Translations under genes and position numbers: made by a program
The notes under the pieces: model-generated
Databases searched by the model: none
Seen by the model: only the letters and a program-made list of their open reading frames with translations
What the model was told of the DNA's origin: nothing
Shown: positions 1,894 to 19,517 of the stretch, in pieces
Numbering within the stretch: position 1 is the first letter of the stretch
Layout: each line of letters begins with the position of its first letter
Origin: a virus
Virus record (IMG/VR): IMGVR_UViG_3300027906_000156
Coordinates: 1-23,593 of that record
Length of the DNA stretch: 23,593 nucleotides
Direction: 5' to 3' (one strand)

Positions 1894-4485
1894 CTAACTG
1901 ATAACCCAGCGTCCGTTAACAGTAACGGTAGCATTATTTGTAATTGGGCCAACCGAATGTGCTCCTTCCGTAGCACCTATCGTTACATCGTTACTGATCG
2001 TCAAGGTATTCTTATACATTGTTCCATCTGCTGAAGTACTTGATACATCTCCCCATTCAATATTTGCACCAGATCCTAGCTTTAAAGCTTGACCCTCACT
2101 ACCACCAGCAAGGTTTAAATAATAGGTTAAGGTATTTGCTAGTGCAGCAGGTGCATAGAATCTAATGGTATTAGTACCGTTAGCAGCATCTTCTGCTATT
2201 CCTAGATAATGTCTTTCACCAGATGTAGGTGATCCAACAACTAAGTCTGCATAAGAAATAAGTTGACCAGATTTAACTTGCACAGAAGCGGCATCTATCG
2301 CTACAGCATCAGTTAATGTAGATGTGCTTATTTTTAATGTGTCATTAACTGTTATCTGACCAAGTGCTCCATCACTTTTTATTTGTAAATCAGTAGCAGT
2401 AGTACCCCAGGTAGCAGTGACATTATCATTGAAAGCTACACCTGTAGCACCACCAACTCCTGCTGGTACATCAGCCCAAGTTAGGCCACCTGTATTGCCT
2501 GATTGTTTAGAAAGAAACTGACCATTAGTACCACTATTACTAATCTTTAATTTCTCTTCACTAACAGCATTTGTTTGAAGAATAGCTTCAGTAACTGTGT
2601 TATTACTTGGAGTTCCTACACTGACAGATGCACCAATAGTAACTATAAAGAAATCAGCCCCAGATGCAGGTGCAGTACTAAAGATTATGTCATTACCATT
2701 AATAGCGAAACCTTCTGATGGAACACCTGTACCTGAATTTGGTTTCTGAATTACACCTCCAACACTCACAATTAATTGTTGAGCTGTAGTTGGTGGGTTA
2801 GAAAGAGTAAACTTCTTTGCTGTTCCATTAAATGTTGCACTACCACCAGGAGGTGTATCACTATTAGAACCTGAACTAGCAAGAGTATTGATATAGAAAC
2901 TTCCAGTACTTGCGACTTCTCCCCATGCTGATCCGTCATAGACCATCATCTTATTTGTAGAAGTATCAAAGTAAAGATCACCATTATCATTACTTGATCC
3001 AGGTGCTGAACCTGCTACTCGATACCGTTCATTAAAGTCATTGATATCTCCACTTAACTGTTCTACATCAGCTTCTTTAGCAAGAATCTTATGGTAATCG
3101 TAAGTATGAAGTGTACTAGTTGTCTGTACTTGTAAACCTATACCAGCACCTAGAGTTTTGCTGTAGAGAGAAGAAGGAAATCCATTGATGGTGACAGTGT
3201 TTCCACTTCCTGCTCCATTAGCAACACTTGCAACACCACTACCATTAATTACAACACCACCTGCATCTGATACAGAAACCACTGTTCCTGCTCCTTCTGA
3301 TGGATCTGGATGTGTACCAGGGAATGAAGTCTCATTTGAAATTGCTACGAAACCACCTAAAGCATTTGTTACAGAAATAATCCGATCATTTACTGCTTTA
3401 GATGTTGGTATTGCTGTATCACTATTTGTAGTAAGACTTGTCTCACCTATTGTCTTACCGTCAAGCTGGTTAAGTTCAGCAGTTGTTGATGTTAATGCTG
3501 TACTTGATGCTAGTAATGAAGCAGTACCTGACTGCATACCAGCTAATGTTGATAATTCATCATCAGCAAGTTCTGAAGTTGTTACTGAATTAGCTGCTAA
3601 ATGTGAAGCATCTAAAGGTGAACTAGCTATAAGTGTTTTTATTTCAGCTGCTGTTTGGTCTGCTGTAGCAGAAGCCTCTATAGCATTTAGCTTTGTATGA
3701 TCAGCATCTGTAAAAACATTTGAATCTGTAGCTGACTCAACTAAAGTCCTTATCTCTGCTGCTGTTTGGTCTGCTGTAGCACTCGTTTCTATACCATCTA
3801 ACTTTGTTTTATCTGCTGCTGATAATGTCCCTGCTGCTGAAGTAGTTGCTGCTGTAATCTTTGATCCAGCTATCGCTGCTGAAGCATTAATATCTGAATC
3901 AACAATAGATCCTGCTTCTATCTTTGAACTATCTACTGAATCAGCAGCTAACATCGCCTTTGTTACAGCGCCTGTAGATCCTGTAGTAATAACAGTTCCT
4001 GATGAATCAGGTAACGTGATTGTTCTATCAGCAGTTGGATCTGTTATTGCAAGTGTTGTTTCGTGAGCATCATCAGTAGCTCCTTCAAATACAAGGTTGC
4101 CAGTTACTGTTGCACTTCCATCCCTTTTAACAGTGTCATTATTTAAGATGTCTACAAACTCTTGAAGACCAAATAAAACTTGATCACTATTGTTATCTAA
4201 ATCAGTTTCTGTAAGTACAGAACCATCTTGGAAATCAACTTTCTTAGCACTTATATCTGTATCTCTTTGAAATTTAATAGCAACACCATTGCCAGGATGA
4301 TTACCTGAAGTAAAGGAAATCGTAGTAGCACTAGGAAATGTATAGTGTGTTGTCTTGCTTTTTAGTACTCCACCAACTGTTACATCAATTTCATCCTCAG
4401 AGAGATAACTGAATGAGATTGAAAACGGTCCAGCAGTATTATTCCCTGTGTGGTTTGTAAAGGAAGCAGCGGTGTTAGTGGCCAT
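1894..4485 (-). CDS. Tail fibre protein with T7 gp17-like N-terminal domain
   Basis: An 863-residue fibre. Residues 1 to about 120 match the N-terminal tail-attachment domain of T7 gp17: an ISFSYLSEDEIDVTVGG core, FTSGNHPGNGVAIKFQRDTD, then a helix DNNSDQVLFGLQEFVDILNN. That domain docks the fibre to the tail. The central shaft is Ala/Thr/Ser/Asp-rich and carries two near-identical 19-residue copies of an ATADQTAAEI(R/K)TL-type repeat. Near residues 485-525 is an APGSSNDNGDLYFDTSTNKM module seen in many marine phage fibres. Two GQ(F/A)L...W(A/G)D linkers follow in the C-terminal third. The C-terminus (TNNATVTVNGRWVIS) is beta-like, and no self-cleaving chaperone domain is apparent. The gene sits directly after the gp16-like gene, as gp17 follows gp16 in T7. 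The first half is well supported; the receptor-binding role of the tip is inferred. Confidence 0.9.
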   Translation of the reverse strand: MATNTAASFTNHTGNNTAGPFSISFSYLSEDEIDVTVGGVLKSKTTHYTFPSATTISFTSGNHPGNGVAIKFQRDTDISAKKVDFQDGSVLTETDLDNNSDQVLFGLQEFVDILNNDTVKRDGSATVTGNLVFEGATDDAHETTLAITDPTADRTITLPDSSGTVITTGSTGAVTKAMLAADSVDSSKIEAGSIVDSDINASAAIAGSKITAATTSAAGTLSAADKTKLDGIETSATADQTAAEIRTLVESATDSNVFTDADHTKLNAIEASATADQTAAEIKTLIASSPLDASHLAANSVTTSELADDELSTLAGMQSGTASLLASSTALTSTTAELNQLDGKTIGETSLTTNSDTAIPTSKAVNDRIISVTNALGGFVAISNETSFPGTHPDPSEGAGTVVSVSDAGGVVINGSGVASVANGAGSGNTVTINGFPSSLYSKTLGAGIGLQVQTTSTLHTYDYHKILAKEADVEQLSGDINDFNERYRVAGSAPGSSNDNGDLYFDTSTNKMMVYDGSAWGEVASTGSFYINTLASSGSNSDTPPGGSATFNGTAKKFTLSNPPTTAQQLIVSVGGVIQKPNSGTGVPSEGFAINGNDIIFSTAPASGADFFIVTIGASVSVGTPSNNTVTEAILQTNAVSEEKLKISNSGTNGQFLSKQSGNTGGLTWADVPAGVGGATGVAFNDNVTATWGTTATDLQIKSDGALGQITVNDTLKISTSTLTDAVAIDAASVQVKSGQLISYADLVVGSPTSGERHYLGIAEDAANGTNTIRFYAPAALANTLTYYLNLAGGSEGQALKLGSGANIEWGDVSSTSADGTMYKNTLTISNDVTIGATEGAHSVGPITNNATVTVNGRWVIS
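3641..3808 (-). repeat. Two-copy 57-bp repeat in the tail-fibre shaft
   Basis: Two diverged copies lie at about 3641-3697 and 3752-3808, 111 bases apart and in the same reading frame. Each encodes a TKL(D/N)xIExSATADQTAAEI(R/K)T unit. The DNA core (GCTGCTGTTTGGTCTGCTGTAGC on the plus strand) is nearly identical in both copies, while the flanks differ. Such shaft repeats can change copy number by recombination and alter fibre length. Confidence 0.75.
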
Positions 4486-4490
4486 AGTCT

Positions 4491-7400
4491 TTAATCAGCA
4501 GAAAAGGATTGAAGGTCATTTATATATTCTTGTTGAATTGTAAGCTCTTTCTGACGTTGAGTCTTTATTCTAGCTCGTCCTTGCTCGTCAATCCACTTAT
4601 TTTCTCCTTGTTCTATGTAATAATTGTTGATTTCTTGTAATTTAGAATATATTTGTTTAACTGCTATATCTGCATTTAAGGCTCCACGTTTTTTTACTAT
4701 TGCTAAATTGTTATTGTAATGATCTGATTTTAGATAGGCTCTTAAAGTTTGATCTAGCGTTCTGTCACCGTACTTCTTAGTTGTAATAGTATTAACAATG
4801 CTGCGTAATTCTGCATATTGTTGTGTATTTAATCTGAAAGATTCTATTTGACTATCTGTTGCACTTCCGTTAATAACATCTGAAGGTTCTCTAAGTTCTT
4901 TCCCTATTGTTGCTAAAGCAGTAAAGATAGGATGACCTTTGCTAGTACTTGTTTTTACCCAGCTAAATAAATCTGGTCCTGGTTTTTGAGGATGGAGAAT
5001 AGGATCATTTGTTATGTGTTCTCTTAGGAAAGGAAGGTTGCCACCAAACCCAGGAACAGTTCTTGACAGTTCATTTAAATACTTTCTTAAAGCTCTTGCG
5101 TTTTCATCTTCTTCACGCTTTTCCTCATCCCATACATCTCCTGCTCTAACTTTTGTATCTCGTTTTTGCTTATATTTTGCTGAATCTTTTTCTGAAACAC
5201 CAGCCATACCTAATAAATCACCTGGAAGTTGTTTTGCGTATCTAAAGAAGTTTGCATAAGGAGCTCTGGCAGCGAGTTGTTTAGACCAGAAGTTCTCCCT
5301 TGATTCTCCTCCTCTTTCATCAGTAAGAGCTTTCATCGCATCATCAATCTGCGATAAATAAGACCTCTCAGTAAGAGTGCGGGCCATAAGTTTTCCATTT
5401 AAGAGACCAGCCCATCCCATTGTGAACTCATCGTATTCATCATCTGTCAACCACCCTGTCAGAACAGTAAAATCAACCATCAATCCTATCCAAGTAGACA
5501 GAGGATCTAACCTTTCATAGGAATAGTATTTATATGTTGGTTTTCCATCGTCTCCGAGTAAAGGAGATCCGTCTTCATTCTTTTGCAGGTATCCCACACT
5601 GTATGGTTGCCAGCCGTTCTTAAGCATATTCTTCCACACTGCTCTTCCTTCTTTTGTACTCCAATCAGGACCACCACCTGTAAGAATTACTGGAGGAACA
5701 AAGTTAGGATCTTGTTGCATTAAAACACCAGCACCAGTTAAAGCTGCAACTGTTAGACCTAAATCTTTAGCAACTTTCAACTGGCCTCTTGCCTGATTCC
5801 TAACTATTGGATCAGTGCTTTCTAAATCATTTGCTACTTCTCTTAACACCTTATTTAAAACTGGTGTTCTTCTTAGTTGTCTTTTGATGATGTTGGTAGG
5901 TGTTCTAATAAATGAAAGTAATGTTCTTACTAGAGGAATCTGACCAGCCAGATTATTAACACCCTTTGCTACTTTCCCGAAATAAAAGTAACCATCATCA
6001 CGAATGTCTTCAGTGAAGGTACTTCTCTTTGCAAATTCCTGTGATCTTTTTAAAATCTTTGCTGTAATAGGATCTTTTATTCCTTTACCGCTGTTAGAAG
6101 CGTAATATTCAAGGATTGCATCTAAATGGCCTTTTATATAGTTATCTAAATCCTTTCCTTTTAAACCTAGTTTTGTTCCTTCTATATGACCTTGATAATG
6201 TACTGAAGCTATTAAATTAGGAGCTTGAATCAAAGCATCAACAGAGGTCATTAACTGACTAGGGAATCTTATTATTTTGCCACTTCTGTCATAAGCTCTT
6301 GAAAGGATGTCTTTCCCTTCAGACGAAATAACAAACTTCTCTTGATAGTCAGCTTTTACAGCACCTCTATTAATCCAATTGTCTGAATTTTTAAATGACT
6401 CTTTAAAGGCTTTACGAGCAAAACTAGCATTAGAATGTAATGCAATTAAATGTCTAATAGCTGCATCCAGCTCTGTTCTACTACCAGCTCCTCTGATTAA
6501 TTCCCAAGAACCCATATAGGTTTCAAGAACACCTGAAATAAAGTTAACTTGATTTGTAGTAGGAGCAGAAAGTAAAGCGTTAATTCCTATTTCATTGAAG
6601 ATTCTATTAGCCTTATTAAATGTAGATAATGTTTTATGTAATAGTCCTGTTTCATATAAAGCAGATATTTTCTCTACGTTTCCATCTGCTCTTTTAATTG
6701 TATTAGTAAGTTTATTTAATTTGGAATAATCACCTGTTTGTTTTGCTTCCTCAAAAGCATTTAGAAGCTTTCCTTGTAAATCTTCTAATTTTGAGCCTTG
6801 TTCTGATGAACTAATACCAATACTGGATTGATCTACATTTTTGAGTTTATATTTTTCAGCTGGAGTCATCTTTGCAAATTCAGCTGGAGTAACGCCTTGC
6901 GTTGGTATTTGCATTGATCTAAGGCCACGGCCTTGTTCAGTCCTTAGAGGAATACCAAGACGTAACCAATCATCTATTTCACCAATAGATTTAATAAGTT
7001 CATTAATATTTTGTTCTATTGAAATTGGATCTTTTGAAATATTAATGGCATCAATTAATCTTTGATTTACTTCTGCTGAGTTCTTAGTAGCTAAAGTAAC
7101 TGCTTCTGCTAAAGCATAATTAAGTTCATCTGTAGGGACTAAGCCATATATTTTTGCGTACATTTGTGCATGTTCTTTAAGCTTATTGGTATCAGCCAGC
7201 ATTTTGATTCCACCGTCAATGGTGTCTGCTGTTGTTTTTACTTGAGAGAATGCACCTTCATCTTTTAGCTGCTTAATTCTTTTGACGATAAAGTTGAAGT
7301 TTCGTTGTCTATGTTTAATTTCTTTTGTGTCAACAGCACTAGTTACTTGATCTGGATTTATTTGATGAGGAGTTGTATCTGTACCTTTTAATGGACCTTT

Positions 7401-8909
7401 ACCTTGTGAAACACCTGGGGGAGTTTTAGGAGGAGGTGGACCTTCAAATTGTGATTTACGTGTTGCTGGATCAGTTGCAGCTGAAGGAAGTTTTGTTACT
7501 CCTGCTCCACCGTCACCTATATCTACTTTGTTTATATTTAATTGGTCTTGAGGATCCCAATAGATCTTTACTTTATGAAGACGTTTACCTTTACCAGCTT
7601 TTTTTCCTCCTTGATGAGTGAAACCACCAAAGCCTTTACTTCTTAAAAACTCTTCAAGATCAACAGTAATATTGTCTAATTCATCAATAGACATATTTTT
7701 ATTAGCTTTATTGTTTGCTCTTATTTCATCAATTATTTGAGCTAAAGAAGGATTTTCACCTGATGATTTATTGTATGAACCAATTTTAAATGTATCAAAG
7801 GTTCTTCCAATTACTTCGTCATAACCTTCAAAAGTACCTTGGATCTCTTCTAGTTTTGCAATTATATCTTGTGTTACAGGTTGATCTAAATCAAAGAATT
7901 TTACTGGTTGTTTTTCTGTAATTTTATAAACAACTTGATTTGCATTTTCTTTAACTAACTTTTTGTTTTTCTTTTGATATTTACCTGCTGTTGTTAAATC
8001 ATCAGTTGTATATAATCCCTGACCATATAAACCTCTAGCAGAGTAATGACTAGAAGAATCTAATTCAAATTCATCAGCAGCCCCATGATAGAACTCACCT
8101 TTACCTCTGGTATCTGTTGTTAAATCTAACTTGGGTGGTTGTTTACTACCAGTAATTTCACTTATTTTCTTTGGTGCTGTCTCAGATTCTGTTAATACCT
8201 TATCTATTATTTTCTTTTCTTTCTTTGTAACTAATTTATCTATCTCAGCAGCAGACTTGCCATTATATTTCTTATAGATACCTGAAAGACCATCTACTGT
8301 TCCTTTAAAACCAGCACCAAAGATAGTTCCAATTGTTCCTGAAACTGCGTACTCTTCTGCTGTAGGCCATCTGTTTTCATCAATCCTTGTTCTGATTGTG
8401 TGTTCTCCAGCAGCTGTAGTAGCACCTTGAAGACCTGCACCAGCTAAACCTTTAACTCCTTTACCTGTTGATCCATAAGGAATCATCTGGAAAAATCCAG
8501 CAGCTATTGCTTCTCCATAACTGAACTTATCTTCACCTCTGATTTTTTGAGCAGCTACGTTACTAGAATATCCAGACCCAAAATTGATAACTGCATAAGC
8601 AGCCCATCCTTTGGGACCAGCAAGTAATAAAGGTGCTGTTGCATAGTCTGTACCTATCCCTGTACCTATCTCTACACCTAAACCTGCTACGTTTTTAACA
8701 ACTTTATCCTTGGTACTTTCTTCTTCATCTACATAAGGAACATCGTTATCAGCTACATAAAACCTATTAATTGAGTCTTCCTTATTGATCGTTTGATTCC
8801 AATCAATAGAACTTGATGTATTAAAACCAAGGTTTGCAGGCGTATTTGTATAGAGACCTTCAAATGAAGGTGCTTCAGATTCTGGCTTCTTTAAAATTGA
8901 ATCTGTCAT
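4491..8909 (-). CDS. Large internal virion protein (T7 gp16 counterpart) with ART-like domain
   Basis: A 1472-residue protein placed between the gp15-like gene and the tail fibre, exactly where T7 has gp16, the largest ejected core protein (about 1300 aa). An Ala/Gly-rich amphipathic stretch at about 75-210 could insert in membranes. Residues about 273-460 resemble the ADP-ribosyltransferase fold of phage polyvalent proteins: FYHG at 273-276, ARGLYGQGLYTTDDLTTAGKY at 291-311, GFGGFTHQGG at 426-435 and HKVKIYWDP at 445-453. Further on are segments typical of large phage polyvalent or internal proteins: LLSAPTTNQVNFISG near 770 and LLSFIRTPTNIIKRQ near 990. The C-terminal third is helical and charged. 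The N-terminal transglycosylase domain of T7 gp16 is absent; a lysozyme-like domain lies in the upstream gene instead. The role is inferred: ejection with the genome, formation of the trans-envelope channel, and possibly NAD-dependent modification of a host target. Confidence 0.85.
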   Translation of the reverse strand: MTDSILKKPESEAPSFEGLYTNTPANLGFNTSSSIDWNQTINKEDSINRFYVADNDVPYVDEEESTKDKVVKNVAGLGVEIGTGIGTDYATAPLLLAGPKGWAAYAVINFGSGYSSNVAAQKIRGEDKFSYGEAIAAGFFQMIPYGSTGKGVKGLAGAGLQGATTAAGEHTIRTRIDENRWPTAEEYAVSGTIGTIFGAGFKGTVDGLSGIYKKYNGKSAAEIDKLVTKKEKKIIDKVLTESETAPKKISEITGSKQPPKLDLTTDTRGKGEFYHGAADEFELDSSSHYSARGLYGQGLYTTDDLTTAGKYQKKNKKLVKENANQVVYKITEKQPVKFFDLDQPVTQDIIAKLEEIQGTFEGYDEVIGRTFDTFKIGSYNKSSGENPSLAQIIDEIRANNKANKNMSIDELDNITVDLEEFLRSKGFGGFTHQGGKKAGKGKRLHKVKIYWDPQDQLNINKVDIGDGGAGVTKLPSAATDPATRKSQFEGPPPPKTPPGVSQGKGPLKGTDTTPHQINPDQVTSAVDTKEIKHRQRNFNFIVKRIKQLKDEGAFSQVKTTADTIDGGIKMLADTNKLKEHAQMYAKIYGLVPTDELNYALAEAVTLATKNSAEVNQRLIDAINISKDPISIEQNINELIKSIGEIDDWLRLGIPLRTEQGRGLRSMQIPTQGVTPAEFAKMTPAEKYKLKNVDQSSIGISSSEQGSKLEDLQGKLLNAFEEAKQTGDYSKLNKLTNTIKRADGNVEKISALYETGLLHKTLSTFNKANRIFNEIGINALLSAPTTNQVNFISGVLETYMGSWELIRGAGSRTELDAAIRHLIALHSNASFARKAFKESFKNSDNWINRGAVKADYQEKFVISSEGKDILSRAYDRSGKIIRFPSQLMTSVDALIQAPNLIASVHYQGHIEGTKLGLKGKDLDNYIKGHLDAILEYYASNSGKGIKDPITAKILKRSQEFAKRSTFTEDIRDDGYFYFGKVAKGVNNLAGQIPLVRTLLSFIRTPTNIIKRQLRRTPVLNKVLREVANDLESTDPIVRNQARGQLKVAKDLGLTVAALTGAGVLMQQDPNFVPPVILTGGGPDWSTKEGRAVWKNMLKNGWQPYSVGYLQKNEDGSPLLGDDGKPTYKYYSYERLDPLSTWIGLMVDFTVLTGWLTDDEYDEFTMGWAGLLNGKLMARTLTERSYLSQIDDAMKALTDERGGESRENFWSKQLAARAPYANFFRYAKQLPGDLLGMAGVSEKDSAKYKQKRDTKVRAGDVWDEEKREEDENARALRKYLNELSRTVPGFGGNLPFLREHITNDPILHPQKPGPDLFSWVKTSTSKGHPIFTALATIGKELREPSDVINGSATDSQIESFRLNTQQYAELRSIVNTITTKKYGDRTLDQTLRAYLKSDHYNNNLAIVKKRGALNADIAVKQIYSKLQEINNYYIEQGENKWIDEQGRARIKTQRQKELTIQQEYINDLQSFSAD

Positions 8910-8911
8910 GG

Positions 8912-11350
8912 TTACTTGAGTTTAGGTAAGAATTTCTTATATGACCCATTGGTGTAAGCTCCCCAAGCTTCAAACCCTTGCTGGTCAAAAATCATCTTAG
9001 CTGCCCTAACATTAGTAGCAGGATCATAAAGTTGCTCATCTCTATCTATTCCAAGTAGATTTCTCCTCTCAACACCATATTCTTCAATCATATTTATTTG
9101 CCATAATCCTATTGAAAATTCATTTCTTTTATCTGGATCTAAACCAGATTTCACTGTATCAATAGAAGCATCACCACCAGATTCAGCCATTGCAATAGCA
9201 GCCATAATCTTTGCTTGCTCAGGTGTAAAGCCTCCTTCTAATGCCAATTTTTCTAAATTTGGTTGAGCTATTGGTTTAGTAATATCTATTTCATCCAAGA
9301 CACTATCCTTAGGAAACTCTTCAGCTGCTGCTGAACCCATAAAAGTATTTAAAATTGAATCAACAAGACCTGTTTCTGATTCGCCTAAGTTTTCTTTTGC
9401 AGCATTTAATTGGCTGACAAGCTCATCATTATCTTTTCCTCTCAGTCCATCAAGAAGTAATTCAATCCAACTTTTCTTACCAGTATCTTCTTTTTCCTTT
9501 TCTTCCTCTTCTATTTTTTTATCACCTGGTTTGTTTTCTTGGCCTTGTTGTTCTTTTTCTTGGGAAGAATCAAATTTTGTTGGGTCTAAATTTTCATCAT
9601 AGATTTTTGTAGCATCCTCTAGTCCAAAGCCATAGTCGATCATCAGCTTATCGATTCCAGCTTTTCTTTCTTCTTCTTTTGCTTTTCTCTCCTTGGTTTC
9701 TGCTGAATCAAAAGTACCTGCTTCTACATAAGATTCATCATTTATAAGTTTTATTGACTCAAAATAATCTGCTTGAATTTCTCTCCACTTGTCTTCTTTT
9801 TCTTTATCACTTAGACCAGGTACATTTTGAATTTCATCAATTCGCCTCCTGTTAATTCTTCCCACTAAATCAACGTGCTGAATTGCCTTGTCTGCGTCTT
9901 TTTCCTTAAAGATGTCTCCAAATTCTCCTGTACCTCCTAATATTGTTTTTCCTTGCCTAAACATACGTTGTGCTCTTGTATCAAATTTACCGACATTACT
10001 AGAAGTACTTCTTCTGGCTATTTCAAAAGATCGATTATAATTATCTCTATCTTCTTCCGTAAATGTTTCACCAATTTGTTCTTTTATCAATGCTAAATCA
10101 ACAAACATTTGTGTGCGATTATTCGCATAATAACCAACTCCAACCTTATAATTAAAGTCATCAAAAAGATCATCTCTATTATCAGAATAGATTTCAATCT
10201 GGTCAAATAGAAATTCTCTCCTATTAGGATATTTTTCTAAAAGATTCTCTAGAGCTTTATTATCAGAAGAGAACTCTTTAACAGAATCCTCTATCGCTTT
10301 CTCTTCTTTGGCTTGTACTTGTTCTATTAATTTCTTCCTTATTTTATCATCCTGTTCTCCAAGTTTCACTCTAAGCTTGAGAATATCTTCAGCATAAGAA
10401 TCCCTTATTAAACGTTGTTTATAAGTACCATCTTTTTGCTTTTCCTTAGGTCCATGTTTTAACTGACCTACCATATCTAAATATTCCATAACAGCGTTAT
10501 AACCACGACCTGCTCCTGCCTTCTCATTAATCTCATATATTCTTGAAGCTTGGTTTTTTGCAGTTGCAATGATTACATCTGCTGTAACCGCTTCACTTAA
10601 ACCTATATTTACAGTGTCCTCTATATAATCTTGAATACTGTCAAGTGCTAATGCCTGATTGCCTTTTTGATATTGTGCCCAATTACTTAATAGAGATGTT
10701 GAAAATTCTCCCTTGTGTTTATCAACTTTATACTCATTATGATTTTTTATATGTGCTGTAGAAATGTTCTCAATAAGTGTTCCTTGCGCTCCCAAAAAGA
10801 GTTTTCTATTTGTAGCTCCCATCCTTTCTGATTCTGCATCACCTATCAATCCAGCTTCACCTAAAAATTCTTGAAACTGAGAACTCTTAATAGAAAAATG
10901 AGAAATTGGTTTTTCTACTTCTTCACCGTTGTCTTTTTTGACAGTATATGTTTTAGTTTCATATAAAGCTTTTACCTGCTCTTCAGTATTATTTACGATT
11001 GTTTGAGTTCTAGCTTTTCGATACGCACGATCAGAAAAAATACTACCTCCAATTAATTGTGTAGCAGCTTCATCACCTTCTTTTTTTCTTACCCCTGCTA
11101 CATACTTTTTAAATTCAGGTTGTAATTCTCCTACTTTTTCATCTCTCTCTATCTCTAATCCTATAGCTTCCTCTTCTTCAATAGCTTTTTGAGTCCTGTA
11201 AGCTAAAGCACTCTGAATACCTGGATTCACTTCAGCTAAAAGAGTAACGAATTGTCCAAAAGCACCACCTGAATGATCTACTGGAGCAACAGTACTAGGC
11301 TGAACAAAAGTATCTACTGCTCTAGCTTGTGGTTGATAACTATTTGTCAT
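8912..11350 (-). CDS. Internal virion protein (T7 gp15 counterpart) with C-terminal transglycosylase-like domain
   Basis: An 812-residue protein. The N-terminus (YQPQARAVDTFVQPS, then LAEVNPGIQSALA) matches gp15-like internal core proteins of cyanopodoviruses as I remember them. The middle is strongly charged and helical, with long Lys/Glu coiled-coil stretches and a low-complexity EEEEKEKE region near residue 615. From about residue 698 there is a lysozyme-like or lytic transglycosylase domain: AIAMAESGGDAS with likely catalytic Glu723, FSIGLWQIN at 745-753, LYDPATNVRAAKMIFDQQG, and a GAYTNGSYKKFLP end. This would cut peptidoglycan while the ejected proteins cross the cell wall. In T7 that activity sits at the N-terminus of gp16, so its position here is different. 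The start overlaps the gp14-like stop as ATGA, indicating coupled translation. The catalytic role is inferred from motifs. Confidence 0.85.
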   Translation of the reverse strand: MTNSYQPQARAVDTFVQPSTVAPVDHSGGAFGQFVTLLAEVNPGIQSALAYRTQKAIEEEEAIGLEIERDEKVGELQPEFKKYVAGVRKKEGDEAATQLIGGSIFSDRAYRKARTQTIVNNTEEQVKALYETKTYTVKKDNGEEVEKPISHFSIKSSQFQEFLGEAGLIGDAESERMGATNRKLFLGAQGTLIENISTAHIKNHNEYKVDKHKGEFSTSLLSNWAQYQKGNQALALDSIQDYIEDTVNIGLSEAVTADVIIATAKNQASRIYEINEKAGAGRGYNAVMEYLDMVGQLKHGPKEKQKDGTYKQRLIRDSYAEDILKLRVKLGEQDDKIRKKLIEQVQAKEEKAIEDSVKEFSSDNKALENLLEKYPNRREFLFDQIEIYSDNRDDLFDDFNYKVGVGYYANNRTQMFVDLALIKEQIGETFTEEDRDNYNRSFEIARRSTSSNVGKFDTRAQRMFRQGKTILGGTGEFGDIFKEKDADKAIQHVDLVGRINRRRIDEIQNVPGLSDKEKEDKWREIQADYFESIKLINDESYVEAGTFDSAETKERKAKEEERKAGIDKLMIDYGFGLEDATKIYDENLDPTKFDSSQEKEQQGQENKPGDKKIEEEEKEKEDTGKKSWIELLLDGLRGKDNDELVSQLNAAKENLGESETGLVDSILNTFMGSAAAEEFPKDSVLDEIDITKPIAQPNLEKLALEGGFTPEQAKIMAAIAMAESGGDASIDTVKSGLDPDKRNEFSIGLWQINMIEEYGVERRNLLGIDRDEQLYDPATNVRAAKMIFDQQGFEAWGAYTNGSYKKFLPKLK

Positions 11351-11928
11351 GCGCCTTTAAGAGAATAGTAAGAAGAAATACCACCACCAACAGTTTTACC
11401 AATAGCTCCTAATAAAGTAGGAGCTTGAGACATTATCTGATAACCTCTATTCCTAGCATCTAATGCTTGATTACGCCTAGTATCTCGTTTTGCCTCATAT
11501 CCTCTAATATCCCTTACATATTGACGACCTAAAGATACATCAGTTTGTGCTAAATCAACAGCTTCACCCCCTAGTTGCATTTCTTGATCCATCCCTAAAA
11601 GATCTAACAGTAAACCTGATCTTTCAGAAGCAACTGTTTTACCTCTTGCTTGTGCTCCTTGTACAGCAAGCTTTTGTCTCTTCTTAGCTAAAGCAACTTT
11701 ATCCTCTCTCAACCTTGCACCTGTAGCTTCCTGTTCTGCTGCAAAAGCTCTATCAGCATAAAGAGCAGTTCTTCTCGCTACTTCATATTGATAATCTGCT
11801 TGTTGTTTCGCTACCTTTCTTTGTTGTATTGTCTGAAAAATATTAGTGACACCTTTAATTGCTAAACCAGTCCAAAAAGAACCTGCTGCTTTCCCTAACC
11901 CTAAAGCTGGTAATGCTGCTACACACAT
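11347..11928 (-). CDS. Internal virion protein (T7 gp14 counterpart)
   Basis: This 193-residue protein begins MCVAALPALGLGKAAGSFWTG. A hydrophobic Ala/Gly-rich N-terminus is followed by a long helical, Ala/Gln/Arg/Glu-rich region at about 30-125 (QQRKVAKQQADYQYEVARR, then AAEQEATGARLREDKVALAKK). The C-terminus is glycine-rich (LLGAIGKTVGGGISSYYSLKG). Size, composition and place between the gp13-like and gp15-like genes fit T7 gp14, an ejected core protein thought to insert in the outer membrane. The start directly follows the gp13-like stop, and the 3' end overlaps the next gene by four bases. No enzyme motif is visible. The family assignment is fairly firm; the channel role is carried over from T7. 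Confidence 0.8.
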   Translation of the reverse strand: MCVAALPALGLGKAAGSFWTGLAIKGVTNIFQTIQQRKVAKQQADYQYEVARRTALYADRAFAAEQEATGARLREDKVALAKKRQKLAVQGAQARGKTVASERSGLLLDLLGMDQEMQLGGEAVDLAQTDVSLGRQYVRDIRGYEAKRDTRRNQALDARNRGYQIMSQAPTLLGAIGKTVGGGISSYYSLKGA

Positions 11929-16636: not shown

Positions 16637-16695
16637 AGTTTTGTCCTTAGTTAATTAATAGATGTAAGCACTTCGTTGGCCTTTCCTTTTTCAAG

Positions 16696-16718
16696 GTGGT
16701 ATCCCTCGCAAGGGGCAC
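16696..16718 (-). promoter_or_regulatory. Leader hairpin upstream of the capsid gene
   Basis: In minus-strand RNA, CCCU-UGCG-AGGG forms a short GC-rich hairpin, with an outer GUG/CAC pairing across an asymmetric internal loop. It sits about 60 bases before the capsid ATG, in the untranslated leader. It could stabilise or process the capsid mRNA. The structure is seen; the function is inferred. Confidence 0.4.
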
Positions 16719-16749
16719 TTCAATATTTAGAAAACCTAGAAGTATTTAA

Positions 16750-16777
16750 ATAATAACAGTTATTCAGATTGTTGTAA
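16750..16777 (-). promoter_or_regulatory. Possible sigma70-like promoter for the capsid operon
   Basis: On the minus strand TTACAA is followed after 16 bases by TATTAT (5 of 6 to the -10 consensus), in an AT-rich stretch about 115 bases before the capsid ATG and just after the end of the small membrane-protein frame. The -35 match is poor (3 of 6). A phage-polymerase promoter could equally lie here. Confidence 0.3.
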
Positions 16778-16898
16778 CCTGTGATGTGCTTTGTTGTTTC
16801 ATACGAAATAAGATACCAGTCATAACATAAGCAGGCGCTAAACCTGCGATTAACAAAAGTACCATTATAGTCATTAGTGGTACTACCTTTTTCACCAT
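16764..16898 (-). CDS. Small membrane protein (44 aa) upstream of capsid gene
   Basis: A short frame encoding MVKKVVPLMTIMVLLLIAGL, then PAYVMTGILFRMKQQ and a polar end (SQVTTI). It is one hydrophobic segment with a Lys-rich start and an Arg/Lys stretch after it, suggesting a single transmembrane helix or uncleaved signal anchor. The ATG at 16896-16898 shares bases with the ATG of the plus-strand gene at 16897 (CATG). No good ribosome binding site precedes it. An internal ATG at 16872-16874 (MTIMVLLL) has an AAGG upstream and is an alternative start giving 36 residues. It lies between the envelope island and the capsid gene on the capsid strand. It could be holin-like or a small envelope protein; the function is unknown. 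Confidence 0.5.
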   Translation of the reverse strand: MVKKVVPLMTIMVLLLIAGLAPAYVMTGILFRMKQQSTSQVTTI

Positions 16899-17109
16899 GT
16901 TCCAGAAAATTGTAAACGGTGTAGCCATCCTTAGTTTAGTTCTCAGTGGAGGACTTGCAGGAAGTGCTTATTTTGGTTTGAAATATGTACAGAGTCCTCA
17001 ATTTCAAACGAAAGTAAAAAACTCTTTAATGAAAGAATTAAAAGGAGGTTTACCTTCTGCTATTGATAAACAACTTCCTAAAACAACTGGTCTAGGACTT
17101 CCACTTTGA
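16897..17109 (+). CDS. Small membrane-anchored protein (70 aa), conserved cyanophage type
   Basis: A 70-residue protein, MFQKIVNGVAILSLVLSGGL followed by AGSAYFGLKYV. One transmembrane helix spans about residues 8-29. A charged, amphipathic C-terminal part (TKVKNSLMKELKGGLPSAIDKQLPK) follows and ends in a short Gly/Leu/Pro tail. I remember small proteins with the same F-K-NGVA-hydrophobic opening from marine T4-like cyanophages, where they sit beside relatives of the next genes here; this was not checked by search. No ribosome binding site is evident. The stop overlaps the TTG start of the next gene by two bases. The function is unknown; an envelope location is likely. Confidence 0.7.
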   Translation: MFQKIVNGVAILSLVLSGGLAGSAYFGLKYVQSPQFQTKVKNSLMKELKGGLPSAIDKQLPKTTGLGLPL

Positions 17110-17282
17110 ACCCTCTTAAAGCAATTGGATCTCTTTTTGTTTATACAAGTCCTGATCCAATGGATGGTTATCGTAGGTTTCTTAGGTACAAATCTAATAA
17201 GGAACTACAACGTATCGCTGGTACAACAAGTCACTACAGCAAAACAATATTAATCAATATGATTGTCGATGACCATCCCTGA
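17106..17282 (+). CDS. Small basic protein (58 aa) of the envelope island, TTG start
   Basis: A 58-codon frame starting at a TTG with AGGA eight bases before it, overlapping the stop of the preceding gene. It encodes NPLKAIGSLFVYTSPDPMDG, then YRRFLRYKSNKELQRIAGTT and SHYSKTILINMIV. The YTSPDPMxGYxRF, KSNKELxxIAGT and SHYSK elements look like a conserved short domain I recall from the same gene cluster in marine cyanophages. Its 3' end overlaps the next gene by 14 to 20 bases, depending on that gene's start. The KELQRIAGT helix pair resembles a small DNA- or protein-binding fold, but no function can be assigned. Tight packing and the ribosome binding site support it as a real gene. Confidence 0.65.
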   Translation: MNPLKAIGSLFVYTSPDPMDGYRRFLRYKSNKELQRIAGTTSHYSKTILINMIVDDHP

Positions 17283-17919
17283 AATAAAGATCGAAGTTCC
17301 TCAGGTTAATAGTTACGTCATAAAAGCACCCCAAATAAATCCACCAAACGTACCTGTTCTTGTACCTATAGGATTTCCAGTAATACAGATGCCTTGTGTA
17401 GAAGCTAGAAGAGCTTCTTATGAAAATGAGGCATTAGTAAATAATGATCCAGATGGAAATGTTGTGTTATGTGACGGAGGTGTGCCGAGTTTCACACCAA
17501 TGGATTACACACCAGAAGAGATAATTCCTATACAAGATTCAAAGCCAGCAGAACCAGCAGAACAGGAGACACCACAAGCAGTTACACCTGATATTCCTAA
17601 TAATCAAAAAGAAGAAGAAGATATATTCTTTGTTGAATGTCCAGGTTCAAAAGATCAAAGAATAGGGGATTTTAGAAATGAAAAGAGATTAGAACGTGTC
17701 AAAGGACATGAACGTAGTGAAGATGGTAGTGAATGTATAACTCTCTATGAACCAGTCACATTCGTTGAACAGTACCTACCTTCTGCCGCTACTGCTTCAT
17801 TTACTGCTGCTACTGCTGTGGTTGCCGCCACTACTCCACTCATACTTAATATTATCAAGCCATTAGTAAAGAACTTAATTAAAAAGTTAACGACTAAAAA
17901 GAAAAAGGAAGATAAGTGA
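17263..17919 (+). CDS. Proline-rich, tail-anchored membrane protein, conserved cyanophage type
   Basis: A protein of 218 residues from a TTG at 17263, or 216 from the ATG at 17269; neither has a clear ribosome binding site. The N-terminal half is Pro/Val/Ile-rich (IPEIKIEVPQVNSYVIKAPQ, VPIGFPVIQMPC) and lacks a signal peptide. A CDGGVPSFTPMDYTPEEI segment at about 70-88 is followed by an acidic Pro/Glu linker. Four Cys lie near 45, 70, 126 and 158. Residues 174-198 form a hydrophobic Ala/Thr-rich helix, then a Lys-rich tail (KPLVKNLIKKLTTKKKK). I recall proteins of this design (Pro-rich front, C-terminal anchor, KPL(V/I)K tail) in marine T4-like cyanophages, function unknown. It may span from membrane to periplasm, perhaps linking envelope layers. 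It ends convergently with the minus-strand operon. Confidence 0.7.
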   Translation: MSMTIPEIKIEVPQVNSYVIKAPQINPPNVPVLVPIGFPVIQMPCVEARRASYENEALVNNDPDGNVVLCDGGVPSFTPMDYTPEEIIPIQDSKPAEPAEQETPQAVTPDIPNNQKEEEDIFFVECPGSKDQRIGDFRNEKRLERVKGHERSEDGSECITLYEPVTFVEQYLPSAATASFTAATAVVAATTPLILNIIKPLVKNLIKKLTTKKKKEDK

Positions 17920-18025: not shown

Positions 18026-18622
18026 CTATTTGGAAACTGGGATAAGATTGTGTTTATGGGGAACGCCTGGCTTACTTGTTACTATTACATCTTCACATAA
18101 ATGATAGTACTGGCTGTTTTTTGAAAATTGGATGCCCTTCTGTTTTAGCTCACCACATTCACGTAATCTTGCTATATGCCAATTCAGTTGAGAGTCAATT
18201 AACATCTGCTCTGTTCTAGCGATCTGATTATCTACAGCTTGCTTACATCTTCTTTGCAGTGATTGATCTAATGGAATACTAAATGTCATTGAAAAACCTA
18301 AATTCAAAGCCATATTATCTTTCTGTCCAGTCCTCGTAGCCTGATGATGACTAATGCTTCCATCATCTGCATAGATTGGCGCATCATACCAATACTCTCT
18401 AGGGGTACTATATGTATGTGAATCAGTCACAAATGGACTGAAAGTTAACATTGGACCTTGACAAACAATATTCCCTCCGTACTGATTCTGTATTAGATTC
18501 CCTTGCAAGCTTTGGATCGCCATATTGGTTACAGAACCACTAGAATTAGCCACTGGAGCTGCGGTTTGAGAGGTATTTGCTAATACTTTAGGCGCTAAAA
18601 CAACGCTTATTATTGTGAAAAT
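18026..18622 (-). CDS. Exported protein with four cysteines, conserved cyanophage type; start codon unclear
   Basis: The frame is open from 18781, but the part before about 18625 lies inside the upstream gene. A signal-peptide-like stretch, IFTIISVVLAPKVLA followed by NTSQTAAP, begins at 18622. No ATG, GTG or TTG is available between the frame's overlap with the upstream gene and this stretch, so I place the start at an ATT (18622); nearby ATA codons are alternatives. The first ATG is at 18523 and would remove the signal. The mature part holds NIVCQGPMLTFSPFV, GQKDNMALNLGFSMTFSIPL, RRCKQAVDNQIARTEQ, ARLRECGELKQKGI and HLCEDVIV. Four Cys fit disulfides outside the cytoplasm. I recall this GFS-(x)n-PLD/RC/CGE/CEDV pattern from marine T4-like cyanophage proteins of unknown function. 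It is the last gene of the coupled minus-strand operon. Confidence 0.65.
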   Translation of the reverse strand: MFTIISVVLAPKVLANTSQTAAPVANSSGSVTNMAIQSLQGNLIQNQYGGNIVCQGPMLTFSPFVTDSHTYSTPREYWYDAPIYADDGSISHHQATRTGQKDNMALNLGFSMTFSIPLDQSLQRRCKQAVDNQIARTEQMLIDSQLNWHIARLRECGELKQKGIQFSKNSQYYHLCEDVIVTSKPGVPHKHNLIPVSK

Positions 18623-19035
18623 ACTGAGGTAGTTTCTGTAACGCTTTCTATAACTGACGTTCTTTGGATAATCGTCTGATTTGAAAGGCCAGGCCCAATA
18701 TAACTTTCTGCATATTGAAAAGCTTGACCAGGAGTTGTAATGGTTGCGTTTGGTTTTTGGTTTAAATTTGCACCAGTCCATGTATAACTTGTGCCATCAA
18801 TTACTTGTGTGGTCGCTGACGGAGGCGGGGCCATAGTCGCACCATCAATCGATATATTCGTTCCGTTAATCGTATAAGTATGCCCAGTATTATAGTCATT
18901 GCTGACAATAGTTTCAGTAACATTAGATGTAGTCCTTGTGGTGGAGGACATGGTTCCAGCCGAGAAGTTTGGTATGACGGGGACAGCATAAGCGGGAGAA
19001 AAATAAAGAAATAATAGGGGTAAAAGCCTCTTCAC
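18610..19035 (-). CDS. Exported protein with signal peptide (141 aa)
   Basis: A GTG-initiated 141-residue protein whose start overlaps the previous stop (TAGTG), so it is probably translated by coupling. MKRLLPLLFLYFSPAYA is a clear signal peptide with a probable cut after AYA. The mature chain is Thr/Ser/Ile/Asn-rich and beta-like (TTRTTSNVTETIVSNDYNTG, TYTINGTNISIDGATM), then APPPSATTQVIDGTSYTWTG and a C-terminal TETTSVFSQ. It has no Cys, no lipobox and no enzyme motif. The signal sequence closely resembles that of the gene upstream (MKKLVPFLFLLAAPAYA), suggesting a duplicated or co-evolving pair. The product should act in the periplasm or outer membrane of the infected cell. The function is unknown. 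Confidence 0.75.
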   Translation of the reverse strand: MKRLLPLLFLYFSPAYAVPVIPNFSAGTMSSTTRTTSNVTETIVSNDYNTGHTYTINGTNISIDGATMAPPPSATTQVIDGTSYTWTGANLNQKPNATITTPGQAFQYAESYIGPGLSNQTIIQRTSVIESVTETTSVFSQ

Positions 19036-19517
19036 TATTTAACAGTTACATTTGTCACTACAGAACCAATTGCAGAAGTACCTGCTCCACCTGCGGTTAA
19101 AGTAACAACACCCGCACTAGTAATTGTTCCCGCTAATGTATCTTTAGCACCAGCAGCTGTTGAAGTAACACTACCAAAATTAGGAACAGCACCTACCGAT
19201 GGGGCAGCAGTAGGTACAGCATCGCCTTGTGTATAACTCTGAGAGAAAGAAAAAGCAGCACCTGCTGTATCTTGTGTCGCTGCAATAGTCCCTGGAGCAT
19301 ATACACCAGAGGTGATAGTTCCTACCGATACGGTTGAGGCTGTTGTTCCATCAGTTGTATCGACATTATTCCCAGAGATACTAAAAGCACTACCTATTCT
19401 TTCTGCTTGGCTTGCAGCTGCATTTACATTCAACTGAGTTGAGGTTGTGATGCTATGGGAAAGATCTGCATAAGCAGGAGCAGCCAATAGAAACAAGAAA
19501 GGAACTAATTTTTTCAT
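19035..19517 (-). CDS. Exported Ala/Thr/Ser-rich protein with signal peptide (160 aa)
   Basis: A 160-residue protein with a classical signal peptide, MKKLVPFLFLLAAPAYA, probably cut before DLSHS. The mature protein is rich in Ala, Thr, Ser, Gly and Val with few charges: TTSTQLNVNAAASQAERIGS, SVSVGTITSGVYAPGTIA, AGAAFSFSQSYTQGDAVPT, and a C-terminus of repeated Thr/Val/Gly strands. This suggests a small beta-structured surface or periplasmic protein. No Cys or lipobox is seen. The start overlaps the upstream stop as ATGA, and its own stop overlaps the next start as TAGTG, so the three genes are translationally linked. I recall similar proteins from marine cyanophages, function unknown. Confidence 0.75.
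   Translation of the reverse strand: MKKLVPFLFLLAAPAYADLSHSITTSTQLNVNAAASQAERIGSAFSISGNNVDTTDGTTASTVSVGTITSGVYAPGTIAATQDTAGAAFSFSQSYTQGDAVPTAAPSVGAVPNFGSVTSTAAGAKDTLAGTITSAGVVTLTAGGAGTSAIGSVVTNVTVK

Follow-up and report, generated by a model that had tools for sequence, protein, structure and literature searches.

The ejection proteins of short-tailed phages are viewed mainly as DNA conduits. In T7, gp16 comprises a first membrane-crossing part (TMH I, residues 243-410), a cytoplasmic part (411-1118) and a second membrane-crossing part (TMH II, 1119-1290), and refolds on ejection (PMC8954989). The peptidoglycan hydrolase is known to swap between ejection proteins, being carried on gp16 in T7 and on gp15 in K1E (PMC8954989). 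ADP-ribosyltransferases (ARTs) are already known from other delivered proteins, in several arrangements. T4 packs Alt, an ART of the R-S-E clade, in its head and injects it with the DNA, and in some giant ejected virion RNA polymerases of the N4 type, such as that of Roseovarius Plymouth podovirus 1, the polymerase is joined to ART and metallopeptidase domains (PMC5512222). The ARTs of polyvalent proteins, described in 2017 (ART-PolyVal PF18760, Tox-ART-HYD2 clade), lie within large multidomain proteins that are predicted to be injected, and their active sites are of the H-Y-D type, with a His on strand 1, a Tyr on strand 2 and an Asp on strand 5 (Iyer et al. 2017, PMC5512222). An ART-fold domain is also present in the solved pre-ejectosome of cyanophage A4, in chain 9k3a_B, which is the 'tail protein' A4L_27 of Anabaena phage A-4L, encoded directly after the gene for the gp15-position internal protein.

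Here we describe an ART-fold domain in the gp16-position protein of a marine T7-like phage. The window analysed is a stretch of 23,593 nt (IMGVR_UViG_3300027906_000156, positions 1 to 23,593). The carrier protein shares its gene position with T7 gp16, although T7 gp16 itself has no ART. Like the N4-type polymerases it would be an ejected giant protein with an ART, but it has no polymerase and a different backbone, and whereas Alt is a separate protein outside any channel protein, the domain described here is built into one.

The structural gene block and the gp16-position protein

The minus strand of the window carries a T7-type structural block in the exact T7 order gp11-12-13-14-15-16-17. 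The capsid protein gene (16636-15650) is accompanied by the gp11-position (15439-14837) and gp12-position (14834-12381) genes, gp13 (12381-11929, with a Pfam Gp13 match), the gp14-position internal virion protein (11347..11928; PF24072 T7_gp14, E 5.6e-4, under the family cut-off), the gp15-position protein (8912..11350), the gp16-position internal virion (ejection) protein with the ART inside it (4491..8909) and the gp17 tail fibre (1894..4485; PF03906 T7_tail, E 6e-15), all on the minus strand. The gp15-position protein ends in an SLT_3 domain, which is lysozyme-like (residues 701-796, window 8963-9250; PF18896, E 6.4e-16), and in bearing this hydrolase-like domain on gp15, and not on gp16 as in T7, the phage resembles K1E.

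Gene order, a PHROG match and tblastn together identify the 1472-residue gp16-position protein as a member of the gp16-type internal virion protein D family. It lies between gp15 and gp17, PHROG 6651 ('internal virion protein') matches its residues 706-1219 (E 5.6e-12), and tblastn matches it to 'internal virion protein D' of pelagiphages and roseophages; its similarity to T7 gp16 itself, seen with hhalign, is weak. The protein has a Gly/Ala-rich conserved N-terminal region (residues 61-240; 8190..8729, minus strand), which, on weak but concordant alignments, probably corresponds to the last part of TMH I in T7 gp16, and a conserved gp16 C-terminal region (residues 519-1472; 4494..7355, minus strand), recognised in an alignment of relatives and in 195 relatives from viral contigs. 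The closest isolate is Prochlorococcus phage P-SCSP2, with a terminase 76% and a capsid 86% identical to those of the window. The gp16-position protein of P-SCSP2 shares ∼36% identity with the window counterpart, counted over the aligned parts only, and has no ART. The presumed internal virion proteins of P-SCSP2 were left unannotated by its authors, who could not annotate them (PMC9860041).

The ART-fold domain and its active-site residues

A preliminary description of this DNA had proposed an ART-like domain, recognised from a series of motifs, within a 1472-residue gp16 counterpart. The open reading frame exists, its gene order and PHROG 6651 match agree with the assignment, and every motif is found where the description had put it: FYHG (273-276), GLYGQGLYTTDD, AGKY, GFGGFTHQGG and HKVKIYWDP. 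Comparison with ART profiles, which the description had named as a check, succeeded in part. Two families were recovered, both below their curated cut-offs: DUF3990 (PF13151) matched residues 273-372, the N-terminal half of the domain only, at E 7.9e-6 and 26.1 bits (cut-off 32.2 bits), and ART-PolyVal (PF18760) matched at E 0.021 and 16 bits (cut-off 31.2 bits). In the ART regions of relatives, DUF3990 matched all 21 that were aligned and ART-PolyVal 8 of these 21, with a best E of 0.0012. PF18760 run against the window record alone gave 0 matches, as did its control, an uninformative outcome. Annotated phages searched by tblastn with the ART region gave no match at E<=1, nor did the PDB when searched with the single ART sequence; the profile matches in the PDB were designed helical proteins that fitted the helical insertion and were discarded.

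The AlphaFold2 model of the domain (residues 266-465; 7515..8114, minus strand), built on a 21-row alignment, has a pLDDT of 85.4 and a pTM of 0.82 and contains the split beta-sheet of the ART superfamily. In a Foldseek comparison with the PDB the best match was 9k3a_B from the cyanophage A4 pre-ejectosome (E 7.9e-7, query TM 0.60, 12% identity), followed by the ART-like RES toxins (E 0.012), which degrade NAD, and then, weakly, by ParT. Structural matches in BFVD included ART-PolyVal proteins, Pf-WMP3_26 of a Phormidium phage and one A-4L protein. On this model, residues ∼266-465 of the gp16-position protein form an ART fold, in keeping with the preliminary description. The arrangement has precedents, as the equivalent protein of cyanophages A-4L and Pf-WMP3 also has an ART-fold domain.

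Profile alignments with hhalign connect the ART family both to the A-4L and Pf-WMP3 ART regions (150 columns, E 9.5e-4) and to ART-PolyVal (45 columns, E 9.3e-5), and the latter, with the BFVD matches, upholds the proposed likeness to polyvalent ARTs. When the full-length A-4L and Pf-WMP3 proteins were searched, the best match, individually weak, fell in the ART region of each, and PHROG 832, annotated as 'RNA polymerase ADP-ribosylase', is matched by Pf-WMP3_26 (E 2.9e-24). The two cyanophage proteins share with the window protein an ART fold with a helical insertion and a position directly after the gp15-position protein. However, their ART lies near the C terminus, whereas that of the window lies in the N-terminal third, and there is no close sequence similarity between the domains (12% against 9k3a_B). 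Kinship with the KptA/Tpt1 RNA 2'-phosphotransferases was unsupported (hhalign E 0.077 over 17 columns).

Residue conservation was counted over 75 distinct full-length members of the ART family, all of which retain H275, G276, G296, G298, Y300, Y328, G426, G429, H445, V447 and I449. His275 on strand 1 (8085..8087, minus strand) and Tyr300 on strand 2 (8010..8012, minus strand), the Tyr of LYTTDD, are the His and Tyr expected of the ART superfamily, and both were among the candidates named beforehand as NAD-binding residues. The expected catalytic acid, which the description had left uncertain, did not materialise, as no D or E is conserved in strand 5 among the 75 sequences, and the family departs here from the Asp of the Tox-ART-HYD2/ART-PolyVal group. 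Instead, going by the sequence and the predicted strands, the acid's place appears to be taken by His445 (7575..7577, minus strand), the first residue of the strand HKVKIY (model strand 191-196), which is followed mostly by Q or K. Before it runs a long, basic and highly conserved loop, HQGGKKAGKGKRLH, that starts at His432 of FTHQGG (7614..7616, minus strand; 74 of 75), and just upstream of strand 1 lies Arg268 of DTRG (8106..8108, minus strand; 73 of 75). The strand-1 His and strand-2 Tyr are thus common to the window family and the polyvalent ARTs, but the invariant His in place of the strand-5 Asp and the long basic loop set the window family apart. A-4L and Pf-WMP3 also differ from it, with an Asp where strand 5 begins (GDTTLVINP and ADTVAIYNP, read by eye). 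A strand-5 His may not be unique to this ART family, because one ART-PolyVal member above the cut-off (L131) seems, read by eye, to have a His at the acid position.

Given that no strand-5 acid is conserved, ADP-ribosyl transfer is not assured, and the conserved H-Y-H triad raises the question of what role a His plays at the acid's place in an ART fold. The domain is under purifying selection (dN/dS of 0.08-0.60 in ten pairs), which together with the conservation of individual residues in the alignment argues against its decay.

A variable slot between conserved regions

The ART lies in a variable slot (about residues 249-500; 7410..8165, minus strand) between the conserved N- and C-terminal regions, the contents of which differ or are absent in relatives that share the flanks. 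Where the N- and C-terminal regions of relatives match, the slot holds an ART, a domain with an HExxH motif, a domain with a KxxPxYG motif, or little. It is occupied by the ART in the window and in L007, L019, L033 and L034, by the HExxH domain (HELWHSLSRYL ... EFFAEN) in L042 (8736-9464), L054, L056 and L071, and is nearly empty in L045, L058, L059 and L067. The commonest occupant is a PRYG-type domain of ∼120 residues with the motifs K-x-x-P-x-YG and FESDxDK, found in P-SCSP2 and ∼50 others (including L048, L060, L070 and L083). Pfam gave nothing convincing and no family for the PRYG-type domain. It also gave no support for the HExxH domain, which yielded no usable AlphaFold2 model (pLDDT 49), so that it is here called a putative zincin metallopeptidase by its motif. 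The comparison of gp16 homologues that had been suggested earlier has two sides: dozens of them carry the ART, but most of those examined, including P-SCSP2, do not, and the variability of the slot had been overlooked. Since it is missing from most of these gp16 relatives, the ART is dispensable for the core function.

Close pairs differ in the slot and little elsewhere. L033, which has the ART, is 90% identical in the N flank and 95% in the C flank to L058, which has none, and 89% and 91% identical, respectively, to L059, also without it; the difference between L033 and L059 is clean, keeps the reading frame and has its limits near the edges of the ART domain. L045, with an empty slot, and L056 and L054, with the HExxH domain, are mostly 82-100% identical in the C-terminal part; for L045 and L056 the figure is mostly 90-100%. 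There are also pairs in which the ART is 94-96% identical and the C-terminal regions are not (L001/L002, 96% against 29%; L020/L027, 94% against 29%; L016/L027, 95% against 28%), so that the ART has moved among divergent backbones, and there are single open reading frames in which the ART is followed by the HExxH domain (L041) or by the PRYG-type domain (L049, a Cyanobium contig). In L115 (6165-8915) just the last ∼26 residues of the ART are left, with the frame intact, an apparent deletion scar.

Homology to the gp16 C-terminal region is detectable in 52 of the 80 unique ART-bearing open reading frames, the others being giant proteins of up to 3930 residues. In L050 (a Delftia contig) the ART accompanies LPD37, LPD38 and ddrB-ParB domains, and L010 combines LPD22 with an ART-PolyVal match above the curated cut-off; from these partners it follows that the cassette also occurs in polyvalent-type proteins. 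Polyvalent proteins combine several unrelated enzymatic domains in one injected protein; the window protein has one ART, and its relatives L041, L049, L010 and L050 bring several domains together. Apart from strand 5 and the basic loop, the window ART differs from the polyvalent ARTs in its carrier, an ejection protein of the T7 type that has a cassette slot, and in a PF18760 score under the cut-off. The family is seldom met in whole genomes, a single scan of genome contigs having returned L049 and L050 only.

Judged from these sequence comparisons, the ART is an exchangeable cassette, inserted in frame, that occupies the variable slot of the gp16-position protein. Since the slot is empty or otherwise filled in relatives, the presumed DNA-entry channel protein may also serve as a vehicle for exchangeable effectors. 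We found no description of a slot with interchangeable contents in ejection proteins in the literature searched, the coverage of which was incomplete. Within that coverage, three points appear to be new: the H-Y-H subfamily, its location in gp16-type proteins from marine T7-like phages, and the evidence that the slot takes exchangeable cargo.

Proposed cytoplasmic delivery and alternative explanations

The position of the cassette relative to the host membrane was assessed from alignments with T7 gp16. With hhalign, the gp16 profile pairs its residues 145-226 with residues 346-424 of T7 gp16 (E 0.023, weak), and PHROG 342, to which T7 gp16 belongs, matches in a similar register (E 0.0032, also weak). 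As the two weak alignments are concordant, the slot, from ∼residue 249, is placed at the start of the cytoplasmic part of T7 gp16. KD hydropathy (19-residue window) shows no strong TM segment and no classic TM helix near the ART, and hence the cytoplasmic placement draws on the T7 gp16 alignment and not on TM prediction.

The explanation that we prefer, with a probability of roughly 0.6, is that the ART fold is an effector cassette within an ejected gp16-position protein and acts in the host cytoplasm early in infection. The protein would be packed in the capsid core and, by analogy with T7 (PMC8954989), ejected into the host ahead of the DNA. The cassette, directly after the region aligned with the end of the first membrane-crossing part of T7 gp16, would then emerge in the host cytoplasm, where it would bind NAD+ and modify a host component. 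Delivery of the ART domain is likely, and its arrival in the cytoplasm is what we infer from the alignments and the T7 analogy. The pre-ejectosome chain 9k3a_B provides a structural precedent for an ART fold in a packaged core. A wider proposal, which we hold only tentatively, is that ejection proteins of the T7 type serve as a general chassis for injection, with interchangeable effectors in a slot at the cytoplasmic entry point, and that the ART represents a distinct H-Y-H enzyme class, with a strand-5 His replacing the catalytic acid, delivered before phage gene expression. If ejection proteins do carry swappable enzymes, these marine phages would deliver an enzyme at the outset of each infection, ahead of gene expression and at the stage when early host defences act. 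The close pairs with and without the cassette (L033, L058 and L059) make the idea directly testable.

The lack of a conserved acid in strand 5 would also suit a catalytically dead, degenerate fold that is retained in the capsid core for binding or for structure, e.g. to hold DNA or other core proteins, and the ordered, related domain in the A4 pre-ejectosome indicates that an ART fold can be a built-in part of such a core. We consider such an inactive role less likely, because close relatives with 89-95% identical flanks manage without the domain and because H275, Y300, H445 and the glycines of strands 1 and 2 do not vary across 75 diverse sequences, which points to a functional site; the occurrence of the domain in polyvalent-type proteins also counts against it. 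On a chemical variant of the effector explanation, the domain would be an active NAD-dependent enzyme that spares proteins, either an NAD glycohydrolase or a transferase acting on nucleic acid or a small phosphate compound through its invariant His together with the basic HQGGKKAGKGKRLH loop. The ranking of the RES toxins next after A4 among the PDB matches, and the basic conserved loop with H432 and H445, lend this variant some weight, but KptA gave no profile match (hhalign E 0.077), and we think it no likelier than the structural role.

The ART might instead act earlier than cytoplasmic entry or in another place, for instance on phage proteins while virions are being assembled, or within the periplasm, in that the membrane placement depends on weak alignments. 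The periplasm is, however, not known to contain NAD+ at useful levels; polyvalent ARTs, moreover, are predicted to act inside the host cell (PMC5512222), and we regard this alternative as improbable. A contig-assembly artefact that put a foreign domain in frame might be suspected from a questionable junction in the window near 16.6-17.3 kb, but the reading frame is open throughout, the junction is ∼8 kb away and dozens of other contigs repeat the arrangement, by which an artefact is already refuted and deserves next to no credence.

At this junction (window 16637-17262) the structural block on the minus strand is opposed to the terminase block on the plus strand, and neither a portal nor a scaffold gene was recognised in between. 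In the relatives and in P-SCSP2 a single orientation is shared by the terminase, the gp16 block and the counterpart of ORF 17263-17919, and the window junction is probably a chimeric join or an inversion. Beyond it, positions 18026-19517 hold overlapping small open reading frames with signal-peptide-like starts that belong to PHROGs 848 and 564, both uncharacterised families.
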